DNA of 64,000 bases from Pseudosporangium ferrugineum (lineage in GTDB: Bacteria; Actinomycetota; Actinomycetes; Mycobacteriales; Micromonosporaceae), in assembly GCF_003002065.1 (NCBI RefSeq), contig NZ_PVZG01000005.1, positions 248,001-312,000 on the forward strand, in the 5' to 3' direction. The notes beneath the pieces are model-generated. The model made no database searches and was not told the origin of the DNA. It saw only the letters and a list, made by a program, of their open reading frames with translations. The position numbers were made by a program, and so were the translations under genes. Each line of letters opens with the position of its first letter. Within the stretch, counting starts at the first letter, position 1. Of this stretch, positions 570-50,030 are shown piece by piece.

Positions 570-1337
570 TCAGCGGACCGGGTTGCCCGCGGCGCGGAGG
601 CTGTCCTTCACCTCGCCGATGGTCAGCTCTCCGAAGTGGAACACGCTGGCCGCCAGCACCGCGTCCGCCCCCGCCGCCACCGCCGGCGGGAAGTGGCCGG
701 CCGCGCCCGCCCCGCCGCTCGCGATCACCGGGATGTCGACCACCTCGCGGACCGCCGCGATCAGGTCGAGGTCGAAGCCGGCCTTCGTGCCGTCGGCGTC
801 CATCGAGTTGAGCAGGATCTCGCCCGCGCCGAGCTCGGCCACCCGCCGCGCCCACTCCACCGCGTCGAGCCCGGCCGACCGGCGCCCGCCGTGGGTGGTG
901 ACCTCCCAGCCGCTCACGTGCGGTCCGCCCGGCACGCGCCGCACGTCGAGCGACAGCACCAGCACCTGGTTGCCGAAGCGGCCGGCGATCTCGGCGATGA
1001 GTTCGGGGCGGTGGATCGCGGCCGTGTTGACGCCGACCTTGTCCGCGCCCGCCCGCAGCAGGGTGTCGACGTTGTCGACCGAGCGCACCCCGCCGCCCAC
1101 GGTCAGCGGGATGAAGACCGATTCGGCCGTACGGCGTACGACGTCGAGCATCGTCCCGCGGGCGTCGGAGGACGCGGTCACGTCGAGGAACGTCAGCTCG
1201 TCCGCGCCCGCGGCGTCGTACGCGGCGGCCAGCTCGACCGGGTCGCCGGCGTCGCGCAGGTCGACGAAGTTGACGCCCTTGACGACCCGTCCGGCGTCCA
1301 CGTCCAGGCAGGGGATCACCCGTACCGCGACCGTCAT
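570..1337 (-). CDS. hisF: Imidazole glycerol phosphate synthase cyclase subunit HisF
   Basis: 255 residues, the full usual length. HisF takes ammonia delivered by HisH and converts PRFAR to imidazole glycerol phosphate plus AICAR. It is a (beta/alpha)8 barrel; the N-terminal catalytic aspartate is in [14 protein letters not shown] (Asp12), the second half-barrel aspartate is in SLDVRR, and phosphate-binding glycines are in VGGGVRS and [11 protein letters not shown]. The ATG overlaps the ridA stop by 4 bp (ATGA), so it is the last gene of the his operon and probably translationally coupled to ridA. Its partner hisH lies about 1.6 kb upstream in the same operon. Confidence 0.97.
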
Positions 1338-1729
1338 GATGTCACCCTTCCGCCCGCGTAGGCGTCGATCTCGACCTCGACCAGGTGGTCCTCGTGCAGC
1401 AGCCCGGCGACCACGATCAGCGCCGCCGCCGGCCGTACGTCCCGGAAGATCTCCCCGTGCACCGCGGCGACGGCGTCCGCGTGCGCCCGGTCGGTGACGT
1501 ACATGCGGGTACGGATGACGTCAGCGGCGGCGGCGCCCGCGGCGGCCAGCGCGTCGAGGCCGATGCGGAAGGCGATCCTGGCCTGCGCCGCGGGGTCGCC
1601 GACGGCCACCACCTCACCGTCCACCGTGGCCGTGCACCCGGCGGTGACAAGGAGGTCCCCGGCGCGGACGACGCGGGAGTAGCCGAACCGCTCCTCCCAG
1701 GGCCCGCCGGACCCGAAGCGCGCGATCAT
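1334..1729 (-). CDS. RidA/YjgF family protein
   Basis: 131 residues of the RidA (YjgF/YER057c/UK114) family, trimeric cytosolic proteins that hydrolyse reactive enamine/imine intermediates made by PLP enzymes. The conserved arginine that holds the substrate carboxylate is in the IRTRMYVTD segment, and the C-terminal EVEIDAYAG strand is typical. It sits between priA and hisF, with 4-bp overlaps at both ends: its ATG overlaps the stop of a 39-codon ORF and its stop overlaps the hisF start. Its first residues ([10 protein letters not shown]) resemble the repeated peptide of that upstream ORF. Whether it is a true deaminase or a RidA-like paralogue cannot be told from sequence alone. Confidence 0.9.
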
Positions 1730-39676: not shown

Positions 39677-39693
39677 GGTAGAGATATCCCTCC

Positions 39694-39834
39694 GGCACGC
39701 CTGCGAGGTTAGCTGTCGGGTTCGGGCGGGAAGGTTGCCCGGCCGCGCGAGCGCGGCTTCACCCCGAGGTCCGCCGGGTCGTACGACCCGGTGGCGGACC
39801 GGAAATGGGTCCCCCGTCCCTGCCCCCGTATGCC
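39694..39834 (-). ncRNA. ydaO-type cyclic-di-AMP riboswitch
   Basis: Read on the minus strand, this leader contains the hallmark blocks of the ydaO/yuaA riboswitch as found before actinobacterial rpf and NlpC genes: GGGGACCCA (39814-39806), GGGGTGAA (39765-39758), CTTCCCGCCCGAACCCG (39733-39717) and CAGCTAACCTCGCAGGCG (39715-39698). A closing helix pairs GGCAT (39834-39830) with GTGCC (39698-39694). The ribosome site of the NlpC/P60 gene (39692-39687) follows the 3' edge directly. In this class c-di-AMP binding generally turns expression off, so hydrolase production should fall when c-di-AMP rises. Confidence 0.9.
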
Positions 39835-43137: not shown

Positions 43138-44403
43138 TCAGGACAGCGCCGCCAGGTCCCGGAAGTAGCCGGGGTAGGTCTTCGCCACGCAGCCCGGGTC
43201 CTCGATCTCGATCCCGGGCACCCGCAGCCCCAGCAGCGACATGCTCATCGCCATCCGGTGGTCGTCGTACGTCGCGAACCGCGTCGGCCTCGGCCGCCCC
43301 GGGTGGATCGTAAAGCCGTCCTCGTCCTCGACCGCGTCGATCCCGGCCCGGCACAGCTCGGTCACCACCGCGGCCAGCCGGTCGGTTTCCTTGCGCCGGA
43401 TGAAGCCGATGCCCCGCACCCGCGTGGGCGAGTCGGCGAACACGGCCACCGCCGCGAGCGTCTGGGCGGTATCCGAGATATCGGACATGTCGACGTCGAC
43501 GCCCCGCAGCGGCGCGCCCGTGGTCACGGTCACCGAGCCGCTCGTCCAGGACACCGCCGCGCCCATCCGCTCCAGCACCTCGGCGAACCGCACGTCGCCC
43601 TGGAGGCTCCCCGTGCCGAGCCCCTCCACCGTGACCCGGCCGCCCGCCACCGCGGCGGCGCCGAGGAAGTAGGAGGCGGCGCTCGCGTCGGGCTCCACGT
43701 CGTAGGCGGCGGCCCGGTAGCCGCCCGGCGCCACCGACAGCCCGTCGACGGTCACCCCGAAGGCGGCCATCACCGCCCGGGTCATCTCCACGTACGGCAC
43801 CGAGACCAGCGGGGAGGTGAGCGAGACCGACAGGCCGGCGTGCATCAGCGGGCCCGCCATGAGCAGCCCGGACAGGAACTGGCTGGAGATGTGCCCGCTG
43901 ACCTCGACCGGGCCGCCGCGCAACGGCCCGCGCACCGCCGCCGGCAGGAACCCGGGGCGGTCCAGCTCCTCCACCACGGCGCCCACGCCCCGCAGCGCCT
44001 CCAGGACCGGGCCGAACGGGCGCGCCCGCAGCTGCGCGGAGCCGTCCACGACCGTACGGACGGACAGCAGCGCCGCCGCGGGCAGGACGAACCGGGACGT
44101 GGTGCCCGACTGCCGGGCGTCGACCATGCCGGAGGTCACCACGGCCCCCGGGTCGACGCCGGTCACGCGCACCGTCCGGGCGGCCTCGTCGGCCTCCACC
44201 CGCGCGCCGAGGGCGGCGACGGCGCCCATCATCGCCCGGGTGTCGTCGGCGAAGAGGGCCCCGGAGAGGGTGGAGGTGCCCCGCGCCAGCGCCGCGCAGA
44301 TCAGCGCGCGGTTGGTGATGCTCTTGGACCCCGGGGGCCGCACCGTGGCGTCCAGCGGGGAGCTCAGCGGGGCGACGGGCAGCACGTCCGGAAGATCGGG
44401 CAC
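43138..44403 (-). CDS. aroA: 3-Phosphoshikimate 1-carboxyvinyltransferase AroA
   Basis: 421 residues from GTG 44403. EPSP synthase of the shikimate pathway joins shikimate 3-phosphate and PEP. The N-terminal RPPGSKSITNRALICAALA motif contains the PEP/S3P lysine and serines; DARQSGTTSRFVLPAAALL is the second PEP motif; RGIGFIRRKETDRLAAVVTEL and YDDHRMAMSMSLLGLR complete the active site. It lies between the convergent membrane-protein gene and leuS, transcribed in the leuS direction. Confidence 0.96.
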   Translation of the reverse strand: MPDLPDVLPVAPLSSPLDATVRPPGSKSITNRALICAALARGTSTLSGALFADDTRAMMGAVAALGARVEADEAARTVRVTGVDPGAVVTSGMVDARQSGTTSRFVLPAAALLSVRTVVDGSAQLRARPFGPVLEALRGVGAVVEELDRPGFLPAAVRGPLRGGPVEVSGHISSQFLSGLLMAGPLMHAGLSVSLTSPLVSVPYVEMTRAVMAAFGVTVDGLSVAPGGYRAAAYDVEPDASAASYFLGAAAVAGGRVTVEGLGTGSLQGDVRFAEVLERMGAAVSWTSGSVTVTTGAPLRGVDVDMSDISDTAQTLAAVAVFADSPTRVRGIGFIRRKETDRLAAVVTELCRAGIDAVEDEDGFTIHPGRPRPTRFATYDDHRMAMSMSLLGLRVPGIEIEDPGCVAKTYPGYFRDLAALS

Positions 44404-44422
44404 GGCGTCATTCTGCCCGCGG

Positions 44423-44455
44423 CAGGGCCCGCCACGATCCTCGCGGCGGGCCCTG
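44423..44455 (-). terminator. Hairpin between leuS and aroA
   Basis: A perfect 11-bp inverted repeat (CAGGGCCCGCC / GGCGGGCCCTG) with an 11-nt loop lies 18 bp after the leuS stop and 19 bp before the aroA start. No T-run follows on the minus strand. It is a good candidate for a U-less terminator separating leuS from aroA, or for attenuated read-through. Confidence 0.55.
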
Positions 44456-44473
44456 TTCCATCAGGTGGATCGC

Positions 44474-47287
44474 TCAGACGACGACGCTGACCAGCCGGCC
44501 CGGCACCACGATCACCTTGCGGGGATCGCGGCCGGCCAGCGCGTCGGCGACGGCGGCCAGCGCTGCCTCGCGTACGGAATCCTCGGCCGTGTCCGGCGCG
44601 ACCTCGACCCGGCCGCGGACCTTGCCGTTGATCTGCACCGGATAGGTGATCGACTCGGCGACCAGCTGGGCCGGGTCGGCGACCGGGAAGTCCGCGTACG
44701 CCAGCGTGCCGTCGTGGCCCAGCTTGCGCCACAGCTCCTCGGCCAGGTGCGGGGCGAACGGCGACATCATCAGCACCAGCGGCTCGACCGCCTCGCGCGA
44801 CGTCGTCTCCAGCGGCGTCAGCGTGTTGGTCAGCTGGATCAGCTTGGCGATCGCGGTGTTGAACCGCAGCTCGTCCATGTCCTCGCGGACGCCGGCGATG
44901 GTCCGGTGCAGGGCGCGGCGGGTCTTCTCGTCCAGTGGGGTGTCGGAGACCCGCACCGCGCCGGTCTCCTCGTCCACCACCAGGCGCCACACCCGCTGCA
45001 GGAAGCGCTGCGAGCCGACGACCGCGCGGGTCTCCCACGGCCGCGAGACGTCCAGCGGGCCCATCGCCATCTCGTACACCCGGAACGTGTCGGCGCCGTA
45101 CTGCTCGCTCATCTCGTCCGGGGTGACGACGTTCTTCAGCGACTTGCCCATCTTGCCGTACTCGCGGGCGACCTCCTGGTCACCGTAGTAGTACTTGCCG
45201 CCGCGCTCGACGACCTCCTCGGCGGGCACGATGACCCCGCGGGCGTCACGGTACGCGTACGCCTGGATGTAGCCCTGGTTGAACAGCCTGCGGAACGGCT
45301 CGAAGGACGAGACGTGCCCCAGGTCGTACAGGACCTTGTGCCAGAAGCGGGCGTACAGCAGGTGCAGGACGGCGTGCTCGACGCCGCCGACGTACAGGTC
45401 GACGCCGCCCGGGTCGCCCGGACGCTGCGGGCCCATCCAGTACGCCTCGTTCTCCGGGTCGACCAGCACCTTGTCATTGTGCGGATCCAGGTAACGCAGC
45501 TCGTACCAGCACGAACCGGCCCATTGCGGCATGGTGTTGGTCTCGCGGGTGTACGTCTTCGGCCCGTCGCCCAGATCCAGCTCGACCTGAACCCAGTCCT
45601 TCTTGCGCGACAGCGGCGTCTCCGGCTCGCTCTCCGCGTCGTCCGGGTCGAACGTCCGCGGGGAGAAGTCGTCGACCTCCGGCAGCTCGACGGGCAGCAT
45701 CGACTCGGGCAGCGCGATCGGCAGGCCGGTCTCGTCGTACACGATCGGGAACGGCTCGCCCCAGTAGCGCTGCCGGCTGAACAGCCAGTCGCGCAGCCGG
45801 AACGTGGTGGCGCCGCGGCCGTGGCCGTGCTCCTCCAGCCACGCGATCATGGCCGCCTTGGCCTCGGCGACCTCCATGCCGTTCAGCCAGTCGCTGTTGA
45901 TCGCCGGGCCCTCGCCCGTGTACGCCCCCTCGAAGCCCTCAGGCGCTGCGACCGTACGGATGATCGGCAGTTGAAAAATCTCCGCGAAGGCCCAGTCGCG
46001 CTCGTCCTGGCCGGGCACCGCCATGATCGCGCCGGTGCCGTAGCCGGCCAGCACGTAGTCGGCGACGAACACCGGGATCCTCGCCCCGTTGACCGGGTTG
46101 ACGGCGAACGCGCCGGTGAAGACGCCGGTCTTCTCCTTGGCGTCGGTGCGCTCCTCCTCGGTCTTGGCCGCGGCGGCCGCCCGGTAGGCCCGGACCGCCT
46201 CGGCCGGGGCCGCCGCACCGCCGGTCCACGCCGGGTTGGTCCCGTCGGGCCACTCCGCCGGGACGATCCGGTCGACCAGCTCGTGCTCCGGCGCCAGCAC
46301 CATGTACGTCGCGCCGAACAGCGTGTCGGGCCGGGTGGTGAAGACCGTGATCACGTCGTCGCCCACCGGGAAGTCGACGTGCGCACCCCGCGAGCGGCCG
46401 ATCCAGTTGCGCTGCATCAGCTTGACCGGCTCCGGCCAGTCCAGCGCGTCCAGGTCCTCGACCAGGCGGTCGCCGTACGCGGTGATCCGCATCTTCCACT
46501 GCTTCAGCGAGCGCTGGAAGACCGGGTAGTTGCCCCGCTCGCTGCGGCCGTCCGGGGTGACCTCCTCGTTGGCCAGCACCGTGCCCAGGCCGGGGCACCA
46601 GTTGACCGGCGCCTCGCTGACGTACGCCAGCCGGAAGTCGTTGATCACCTGACGCCGCTCGACCGCGGACAGGGCGGACCAGTCGCGCCCGCCCGGCACC
46701 TCGCGGGTGCCGGCCTCGAACTCGGCCACCAGCTCGTCGATCGGCCGGGCCCTGCGCAGCTCCGGGTCGAACCAGGAGTTGAAGACCTGCAGGAAGATCC
46801 ACTGGGTCCAGCGGTAGTACTCCGGGTCCGTGGTGGCGACCGAGCGGCGGTCGTCGTACGCCAGCCCCAGCCGGCGCAGCTGCCCGCGGTAGCGCTCGAC
46901 GTTCGCCTCGGTCGTGGTGCGCGGGTGGGTGCCGGTCTGCACCGCGTACTGCTCGGCGGGCAGGCCGAAGGCGTCGAAGCCCATCGGGTGCAGCACGTTG
47001 AAGCCCGCCATGCGCTTGTAGCGGGTGTACGAGTCGGTGCCGATGTAGCCGAGCGGGTGCCCGACGTGCAGGCCCGCACCCGACGGGTACGGGAACATGT
47101 CCTGCACGTGCAGCTTCGGCGCGCCCGCGCGCGGGTGCGAGGGGTCGGCCAGCTCACCGACGGGGTTGGGCGCGTAGAACGTGCCGTTCTCGGCCCAGAA
47201 CTCCTGCCAGCGCGGCTCGATCTCGGCGGCCATCGCAGCCGTGTAGCGGTACGGCGGGACGTCCGCGTTGGTCTCGGACTCGCTCAT
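44474..47287 (-). CDS. leuS: Leucyl-tRNA synthetase LeuS
   Basis: 937 residues from ATG 47287. A class I synthetase charging tRNA-Leu. The HIGH-type motif is HVGH at 74-77 ([15 protein letters not shown]); the editing domain has [20 protein letters not shown]; the KMSKS loop reads KMGKS (712-716, [16 protein letters not shown]). Upstream in-frame codons exist but lie in the attenuator region, so this ATG is preferred. Expression is probably governed by a leader peptide and terminator between 47327 and 47422. Confidence 0.97.
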
Positions 47288-47326
47288 CGTCACCATCTCG
47301 TTCTCGTTCGGCCTGCCTGTGGACAC

Positions 47327-47353
47327 AAAAAAGCCCCCTTCGCAGGAGGGGGC
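47327..47353 (-). terminator. leuS attenuator terminator
   Basis: On the minus strand GCCCCCTCCTGCGAAGGGGGC (in two arms, 47353-47333) forms a stem of about 9 bp with a 3-nt loop, followed by six T residues (47332-47327): a textbook intrinsic terminator 40 bp upstream of the leuS ATG. Just before it is a second stem (GCCGCGC ... GCGCGGC with an inner CGTCG/CGACG hairpin). Located inside the leuS leader after a Leu-rich peptide, it is best read as a transcription attenuator. Confidence 0.85.
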
Positions 47354-47392
47354 GCCGCGCTCTGGCTCGTCGCGGGACGACGGGCGGCGCGG

Positions 47393-47422
47393 CTAGGTAA
47401 GAAGCAGGAAGGCTCGGGCCAT
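47393..47422 (-). CDS. leuS leader peptide MARAFLLLT
   Basis: A 9-codon ORF (ATG 47422, TAG 47393-47395) reads MARAFLLLT, with three consecutive leucine codons (CTG CTT CTT); CTT is rare in this high-GC genome. It ends 40 nt before the terminator. The arrangement matches ribosome-mediated attenuation: stalling at Leu codons when Leu-tRNA is scarce would favour antitermination and leuS expression. The antiterminator pairing was not worked out in full. Confidence 0.75.
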   Translation of the reverse strand: MARAFLLLT

Positions 47423-47686
47423 AGGGGCATGGTACTCGCCCCGCTTCGGTGGCGGCGACCGGTATAGGCTCTCCCGGATTCGTAACCCATCCGATATGCG
47501 TGTCTGGTTGACCACGGGACGTATTGGGGGTTAGTGCCCCACTCGGCGAGTTGCTGTGACCGGGCTAACCTGTGGGGACGGGCGGCGAGCGCCGGAGGCC
47601 CACGGACACCCCGGCCGCCCGCGAACCTTCGGTTCCCTTTCGGTGTCAGCACCTAGAAAGGGGCTTGAACGACATGGAGGAGGCCC

Positions 47687-48736
<1,050 letters not shown>

Positions 48737-48737
48737 C

Positions 48738-50030
48738 ATGCGGGAGGCCCTGCGGGGCATGACGACGCGGGGCCGGTCCTTCCTCGCCGCGGGGGCGGCC
48801 GCCGCACTGTCCGCCTTCATCCTCGGCGAGCGGGACCTGCTGCGGGTCGCCATCCTGCTGGCGGCGCTGCCGCTGCTGGCCGCCGCGTACGTGGGCCGCA
48901 GCCGGTACAAGCTGGCCTGCACCCGGTCGCTGGAGCCCGGCCGCGCGCCGGTCGGCTCCAGCGCCCGCGTCGTGCTGCGCCTGCAGAACCTGTCCCGGCT
49001 GCCCACCGGCACCCTGCTGCTGGAGGACCGCCTCCCGTACGCCCTCGGCAGCCGGCCGCGCGTCGTGCTCGAACGGCTCGGCGCGCACATGGCCAGCTCG
49101 GTGGCGTACACCGTGCGCGCCGACGTCCGCGGCCGCTACCCGGTGGGCCCCCTGGTCATCCGGCTCACCGACCCGTTCGGCCTGTGCGAGCTGACCCGCT
49201 CGTTCCCCAGCGTCGACCGGCTCACGGTGATCCCCCAGGTCGTCCCGCTGCCGTCGGTGCGCCTCGCCGGCGAGTACGCGGGCACCGGCGACAGCCGCGC
49301 CCGCTCGGTCGCGGTGCACGGCGAGGACGACGCGGCCACCCGCGAGTACCGCCGCGGCGACGACCTGCGGCGGGTCCACTGGCGCTCCACCGCCCGCACC
49401 GGCGAGCTGATGGTGCGCCGCGAGGAGCAGCCGTGGGAGTCGCGGGCCACCGTCGTGCTGGACACCCGGCAGCACGCCTACCGCGGCGAGGGCCCGACGG
49501 CCAGCTTCGAGTGGGCGGTGTCGGCGACCGCCAGCATCGCGGTCCACCTCCGCCAGGCCGGCTACAAGCTGCGCCTGGTCACGGGCACGGGCGTCGACCT
49601 CGACGCGATCGAGGCGGGCGGCGAGGGCGCGATCCTCGACACCCTCGCCGACGTCAAGACCGCCCCGCACGGCGACGTGGCCGGCCTCGTGGACCTGGTC
49701 CGGCGCCGCTCCGACGGCGGGCTGGTGATCGGCCTGTTCGGCACCCTCACCGTCGCCGAGGCCGAGGTGCTGACCGGGCTGCGCGGCAACGGGGCGACGT
49801 GCATCGGCTTCGCCATCGACAGTTCCACCTGGATGGGCATGACCGCGGACGAGCGGCAGGAGGCGGACCGGCAGCACGCCGCGACGTCCCTCGCGCTGAT
49901 CCGCAGCGGCTGGCGGTCGGTGCCGGTGGCGCACGGCGACTCCCTGCCGGCGCTCTGGCCGGCGGCCGGGCGCGGCTCGCAGGGCTTCGCCTACCGGGCG
50001 GCGATGGCCGAGACAGTGGCAGGCATGTGA
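48738..50030 (+). CDS. DUF58 membrane-associated protein
   Basis: 430 residues, ATG one base after the moxR stop. Two N-terminal hydrophobic helices (about 13-30 and 33-50) are followed by a beta-rich region and the DUF58 core (about 200-245: TREYRRGDDLRRVHWRSTARTGELMVRREEQPWE), a vWA-like fold. The C-terminal half (about 260-400) continues the vWA-type Rossmann pattern (ATVVLDTRQ, VIGLFGTLTVAEAEVL). It is the usual adaptor between MoxR ATPases and transglutaminase-like membrane proteins. Confidence 0.9.
   Translation: MREALRGMTTRGRSFLAAGAAAALSAFILGERDLLRVAILLAALPLLAAAYVGRSRYKLACTRSLEPGRAPVGSSARVVLRLQNLSRLPTGTLLLEDRLPYALGSRPRVVLERLGAHMASSVAYTVRADVRGRYPVGPLVIRLTDPFGLCELTRSFPSVDRLTVIPQVVPLPSVRLAGEYAGTGDSRARSVAVHGEDDAATREYRRGDDLRRVHWRSTARTGELMVRREEQPWESRATVVLDTRQHAYRGEGPTASFEWAVSATASIAVHLRQAGYKLRLVTGTGVDLDAIEAGGEGAILDTLADVKTAPHGDVAGLVDLVRRRSDGGLVIGLFGTLTVAEAEVLTGLRGNGATCIGFAIDSSTWMGMTADERQEADRQHAATSLALIRSGWRSVPVAHGDSLPALWPAAGRGSQGFAYRAAMAETVAGM

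Follow-up and report, generated by a model that had tools for sequence, protein, structure and literature searches.

The leuS gene of the window, which is the whole stretch of 64,000 nucleotides analysed, is preceded by a real and conserved leader of a kind that is already known. The leader comprises a predicted short ORF with three leucine codons, a hairpin designated P1 and an intrinsic terminator (Table 1). We regard it as having somewhat better than an even chance of being a ribosome-mediated attenuator, in which a translation-controlled P1 would block the adjoining terminator upon leucine shortage. The proposed control of P1 by translation is well supported by the anatomy of the leader. 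That P1 counteracts the terminator by abutment is something we infer from the spacing and from the sign of the regulation: leucine starvation should raise leuS, and P1 would therefore oppose the terminator. A preliminary description of this DNA had drawn attention to the peptide MARAFLLLT, with its CTG CTT CTT codons, and to a GC hairpin with six T residues about 40 nt past it, both ahead of leuS. Direct reading bears out both elements, with 39 bases between the leader stop and the terminator stem, and the identity of the downstream gene is secured by its profile match. P1 and the -10 box are additional to that description.

Table 1. Features of the leuS leader region, in window coordinates.
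Feature	Position	Strand	Remarks
leuS (leucyl-tRNA synthetase)	44474..47287	-	TIGR00396, 904 bits (cut-off 548.4)
Intrinsic terminator	stem 47353-47333, T6 47332-47327	-	stem GCCCCCTCCTGCGAAGGGGGC, then TTTTTT; 0 nt from the P1 base
P1 hairpin	47354..47393	-	outer arms GCCGCGC (47393-47387) and GCGCGGC (47360-47354); minimum-energy fold
Putative sensor codons CTG CTT CTT	47399..47407	-	5 nt separate the last CTT from the 5' arm of P1
Predicted leader ORF MARAFLLLT-stop	47393..47422	-	ATG GCC CGA GCC TTC CTG CTT CTT ACC TAG
-10 box TACCAT (TANNNT)	47429..47434	-	read from the sequence; 6 nt before the leader ATG

Read directly on the minus strand, the leader extends from the ATG at 47422-47420 to the TAG at 47395-47393. 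Its ATG lies 135 bases ahead of the leuS start, which is taken to be the ATG that opens MSESETN; translation might also begin at 47296, where there is another ATG in frame. Because the -10 box stands six bases before the leader ATG, the transcript is probably leaderless and would begin with the A of this codon or a base adjoining it. The counts given below refer to 95 leuS leaders, that is, the 100 rows of alignment A2 minus five that do not precede leuS (L165, L170, L171, L176 and L177); L130 was retained even though no leuS was found in its locus. A TANNNT box is present 6 to 8 nt before an in-frame ATG or GTG in 93 of the 95, at a spacing of 6 nt in 61, 7 nt in 30 and 8 nt in 2, and the start codon behind the box is ATG in 72 leaders and GTG in 21. 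The two exceptions are a sequence cut at a contig end (L153) and another shifted by an alignment gap (L199).

Other elements were noted in the neighbourhood. The sequence ATACCGGTCGCCG lies at 47465-47453 of the window, on the minus strand, and at the same place in many of the loci L010-L040; by eye, it and the leuS -10 region (GGCGACCGGTATCAT) make up an inverted repeat in many congeners. The ATACCGGTCGCCG/GGCGACCGGTATCAT repeat may be an operator or a divergent promoter directed at the gene at 47687. A single full-length match to leuS is found in the own genome, and a mechanical ORF of 1216 aa lies antisense to the gene. Farther away, a c-di-AMP riboswitch (RF00379, 60.6 bits) occupies window positions 39683-39806 of the minus strand.

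At the place of the last Leu codon, 5 nt ahead of P1, 86 of the 95 leaders have CTT, 7 have CTC and 1 has CTG, the remaining one being misaligned. CTT is a rare codon, accounting for 1 of the 281 leucine codons in five genes of the window. The leader stop is a TGA within P1 in 68 leaders, a TAG just before P1 in 17, which is the type found in the window, and a later codon in 10. The predicted ORF and its leucine codons are kept in frame among relatives, as in an attenuator, and related leader peptides are present in the homologous loci.

The 5' arm of P1 begins at the final base of the TAG stop, and the base of the hairpin abuts the terminator; the gap between the two hairpins is 0 nt in 64 of the 95 leaders and at most 2 nt in 90. 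A terminator scan of positions 44000-50000 returned five sites, among which that of the leuS leader ranked first (shuffles: mean 1.0, sd 1.1), one of the five being the same hairpin in another register. Apart from its T6, the window, which is 73% GC, has no stretch of at least six consecutive T or A on either strand. An intrinsic terminator thus stands between leader and leuS, as anticipated for an attenuator. U-poor tails, in which at most four of the last seven aligned bases are U, are found in about 23 of the 95 leaders; a terminator-like hairpin is kept with a poor U tract in L043, L047 and L049 (Actinophytocola, Lentzea and Amycolatopsis) and in L148. Directly past the terminator of the window, positions 47326-47321 read GTGTCC. 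The motif TG[TC]CC is found in 53 of the 95 homologues within a 20-base stretch spanning the end of the U tract and what follows it, against 6.0 expected from shuffled tails, and the variant TG[TC]CCGG in 22.

P1 and the terminator are formed together in the minimum-energy fold, computed with no ribosome modelled. The folding energy of the 151-nt region is ordinary (z of -1.58, with 16 of 200 shuffles as good), and because energy alone is unexceptional, the case for more than chance is a comparative one. In A2, a 100-locus model alignment fitted to the structure, 97.3% of the cells pair, compared with 43-55% in slid controls; pairs changed on both sides number 6 of 9 in P1, 4 of 6 in the terminator stem and 10 of 15 overall, and none of 500 shuffles reaches any of the five measures. 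In A1, an unfitted alignment of 29 sequences in which the covariation of P1 is weaker, 94.0% of the cells pair, and neither the number of cells changed on both sides nor the covariation score is reached by any of 500 shuffles. Two values are ordinary in A1, namely the two pairs changed on both sides (312 of 500 shuffles) and the eight further pair types (499 of 500).

Conservation in relatives had been set beforehand as a check on the preliminary description, and leader and terminator are present in 29 of 29 congeners, or 30 of 30 loci of the genus when the own locus is included. These loci (L006-L035) come from a search of 60 genomes; the genus accounts for 36 of these, the own genome among them, and 30 of the 36 yielded a locus. 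The leader was found in 46 of the 65 loci of that search. Among the 19 that lack it are loci of Nocardia and Corynebacterium, acidimicrobial loci and other distant ones. Carriers include Actinoplanes/Paractinoplanes, Catellatospora, a Micromonosporaceae MAG, Actinophytocola, Streptomyces, Kitasatospora, Lentzea, Amycolatopsis, Glycomyces and an Intrasporangiaceae, together with Saccharomonospora as recognized by the model.

The covariance model R1, built from 29 sequences, matches 146 of 394 genomes of the class, belonging to 59 of 138 genera and, by our own count, to 25 family codes; some weak matches in the class were lost because the filters were strict. Among the 146 genomes with matches, 74 were examined, and leuS adjoins the match in 69 of them. 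Another gene lies behind the match in four (G306, G347, G316 and G356), and no leuS was found in the matching locus of G115 (L130). For family code f46, a match was seen without leuS beside it. In the own genome, the leuS leader is the only match below E 1. All 100 of the 100 loci searched match the model, a figure that is not a frequency, because most of these loci had been picked by the model itself. In a sample of the phylum, 17 of 296 genomes match, three of them outside the class. One of the three (L209) carries a clear leuS leader by eye, and the match of a second (L217) is doubtful on inspection. At the match of the third, L218 (about 1501-1594, minus strand), a reading frame that resembles a leader and contains codons for both Leu and Ile is accompanied by a hairpin and a terminator, and behind these come a small ORF and a gene for the large subunit of acetolactate synthase.

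Local searches were also made of 13 leuS loci that belong to further families of the order and were absent from the listed matches; 8 of these, including L193, match the model and 5 do not. A further 27 loci include 24 with no match at E up to 10, among them six Nocardia and one Corynebacterium. The 20 non-matching genomes of the class that are listed by name all belong to f8, a family for which no match is tabulated. On these searches, the absence of the leader from a good part of the class is real.

Five weaker model matches precede genes other than leuS. In L176 (match at 701-797, minus strand) and L177 (701-793, minus strand), the codons ATC ATT ATC and ATC ATT ATT, respectively, stand before a citramalate synthase (cimA-like) gene, assigned by eye in L176 and by TIGR00977 in L177 (252 bits for a partial protein, below the whole-protein cut-off). 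L170 and L171 have Ile codons before a threonine ammonia-lyase (ilvA-like) gene, assigned by eye in L170 and by NF005600 in L171 (109 bits, partial); the model match of L170 is out of register, its leader lying just upstream of the match. In L165, the codons ATC ATT ATC are followed by the gene of a small protein that matches no NCBIfam entry. L165, L171, L176 and L177 all retain P1, with a terminator only a few bases away. A search of the own genome for Ile leaders with the single pattern ATCATTATY gave four sites, none of them leader-like by eye. The exchange of Leu for Ile codons within the same layout argues for codon sensing, as opposed to the recognition of RNA letters alone.

These data also bear on two readings in which the codons play no part. 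The joint folding of both hairpins without a ribosome, together with the unremarkable folding energy, would suit a constitutive terminator made of two hairpins in tandem, with a small ORF that is there by chance and no leucine control. The rare CTT, the fixed distance from codon to P1, the position of the stop and the Leu-to-Ile swap before Ile genes all speak against such a terminator, and we consider it improbable. A T-box, or another leader that binds tRNA or a ligand, might be suspected before a synthetase gene, and T-boxes are described before ileS in several actinobacteria in the available text of PMC1262725. No Rfam family, T-box or other, matches the region at the gathering score, and the three matches obtained at E up to 10 are at chance level and include no T-box, so that we give this reading hardly any weight.

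In the ribosome-mediated attenuator favoured here, charged Leu-tRNA would allow the ribosome to reach the stop codon and cover the 5' arm of P1; P1 would then not form, the terminator would close freely and transcription would stop before leuS. When leucine is short, the ribosome would stall on the Leu codons, leaving the arm free for P1 to form. Because P1 sits directly against the base of the terminator, the formed hairpin would hinder the closing of that base inside RNA polymerase, with readthrough into leuS as the outcome. The constant order of leader, P1, terminator and leuS among relatives supports this mechanism. Read against the size of the ribosome footprint, the leader positions fit as well: a ribosome at the stop would cover the 5' arm of P1, and one at either of the first two Leu codons would leave most of it free.

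The switch was modelled by partition-function folding of the 95 leuS leaders with ribosome masks in six states, a treatment without pseudoknots or kinetics. Only P1 responds strongly to the modelled position of the ribosome, with mean probabilities of 0.98, 0.72 and 0.25 when Leu codon 1, 2 or 3 is in the A site, 0.00 with the ribosome at the stop and 0.97 without a ribosome. The mean pairing probability of the terminator is 0.91-0.95 across all six states. It falls below 0.5 in 0 of the 95 leaders at each Leu-codon stall, in 3 and 2 at the two stop positions and in 3 without a ribosome; if anything, these few cases fall in the states opposite to those that antitermination needs. Two outcomes of the modelling weigh against the favoured mechanism: the terminator is predicted to be folded in all states, and P1 would be mostly masked with the third and best conserved Leu codon in the A site. 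Control would be weakened, moreover, by the formation of P1 without a ribosome or after its release.

A U|G step is found 10-12 nt past P1 in 80 of the 95 homologues, a spacing that resembles the hairpin pauses of the his and trp leaders of E. coli. P1 might accordingly be, in the main, a pause hairpin that responds to translation and keeps polymerase and ribosome in step, such that timing rather than blocking of the terminator decides. We rate this as rather unlikely, given that the TG of this step also falls within the loop of the terminator and might be conserved on account of that hairpin. A pausing role suggested by the U|G step would in any case be compatible with the blocking role of P1, and the hairpin possibly serves both.

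The preliminary description had recognized the layout of ribosome-mediated attenuation and had looked to mutually exclusive antiterminator pairings; the leader, the Leu codons and the terminator stand, and the mutually exclusive antiterminator finds no support. No overlapping antiterminator was found by masked folding of the 95 leaders or by extension of P1 in 93 of them (L153 and L199 also removed), pseudoknots and kinetics being outside the method. Outward extension of P1 into the terminator side allows one pair in 16 of the 93 and two pairs in 3. It is from the stable terminator and the rarity of this extension, both obtained with a method blind to pseudoknots and kinetics, that we conclude that a classical antiterminator is not seen. 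A pairing of the Leu codons with the 3' arm of the terminator, drawn by hand (7-8 pairs with wobbles), was rejected on three grounds: the codons would be hidden by any ribosome on the leader, the fold without a ribosome does not favour the pairing, and the Ile versions, by eye, have no complementary letters.

A classical attenuator with an antiterminator overlapping the terminator, or competition at the boundary as in ilvBNC of C. glutamicum, has precedents in its favour: antiterminator and terminator hairpins are placed upstream of Streptomyces leuS in the text available from PMC1262725, and mutations support the adjacent, partly overlapping hairpins of ilvBNC according to the accessible part of PMC11857589. 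The results of folding and extension run against it, and we hold it to be unlikely for the leader in the window. More tentatively than the attenuator that we favour, we suggest a reusable actinobacterial module, in which an abutting, non-overlapping antiterminating hairpin would work by geometry and the sensor codons would be swapped while the two-hairpin core is kept. Steric blocking by an adjacent hairpin was not found described in the titles and abstract openings of the literature searched.

The novelty implied by the preliminary description is not upheld, as attenuators before leuS and trpS of Streptomyces had been predicted in 2005 (PMC1262725, available text). What is added is the extension of a prediction for two Streptomyces species to a leader with model matches in 25 family codes of the class, together with a covariance model that can be used to annotate it. 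The breadth of the family, the geometry without overlap and the versions with Ile codons deserve to be followed. The absence of an overlapping antiterminator raises a question that can be tested, namely whether a hairpin in mere contact with a terminator can switch it off. The fixed spacing from codon to hairpin and the preference for the rare CTT also make the leader a natural setting in which to ask which leucine isoacceptor it senses.

Comparison with known systems places the leader closest to those of Streptomyces. The literature covered, with subscription papers mostly outside it, offered in its accessible parts nothing closer on attenuation of leuS in Actinoplanes, on Ile leaders before cimA or ilvA, or on antitermination by adjacent hairpins. 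The LEU element of actinobacterial leuA, with its pseudoknot and Shine-Dalgarno pairing, is set apart by its description (PMC1262725, available text). The three-hairpin model of C. glutamicum ilvBNC, as given in the accessible part of PMC11857589 (2025), resembles the leader in having CUU among its control codons and an antiterminator side by side with a terminator. Its adjacent hairpins share a GCC trinucleotide, whereas such a shared boundary is not found in leaders of the window type, which permit the first outward pair of P1 in 16 of 93 and both pairs in only 3.

The classical attenuators predicted before leuS in S. avermitilis and S. coelicolor (PMC1262725, 2005, available text) have, like the window, a leader ORF with Leu codons and a terminator. 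By description, and not by comparison of letters, they differ in that an antiterminator is named for the two species, whereas none that overlaps is found here and the spread is wider. R1 matches the window and the Streptomyces/Kitasatospora loci L045 and L046, all of which belong to its training set. The accessible part of PMC8079986 (2021) describes leuL2 of S. lividans TK24, encoding MRAVRLLLSEPR, as leaderless by RNA-seq and located before leuS, and cites Wolf et al. 2017. In the window, the start of the transcript is instead deduced from the -10 box only, and the leader ends right after the Leu run (LLLT and stop), with a TAG just before P1 in place of the TGA inside P1 seen in leuL2. The work of Wolf et al. 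is reportedly a transcriptome study of Actinoplanes. The peptide of leuL2 recurs in loci outside the training set that R1 nevertheless matches, such as L132 and L133. As in leuL2, a Leu-rich and probably leaderless leader, a hairpin and a U run precede leuS in the window, and P1 and the terminator are homologous in the two.
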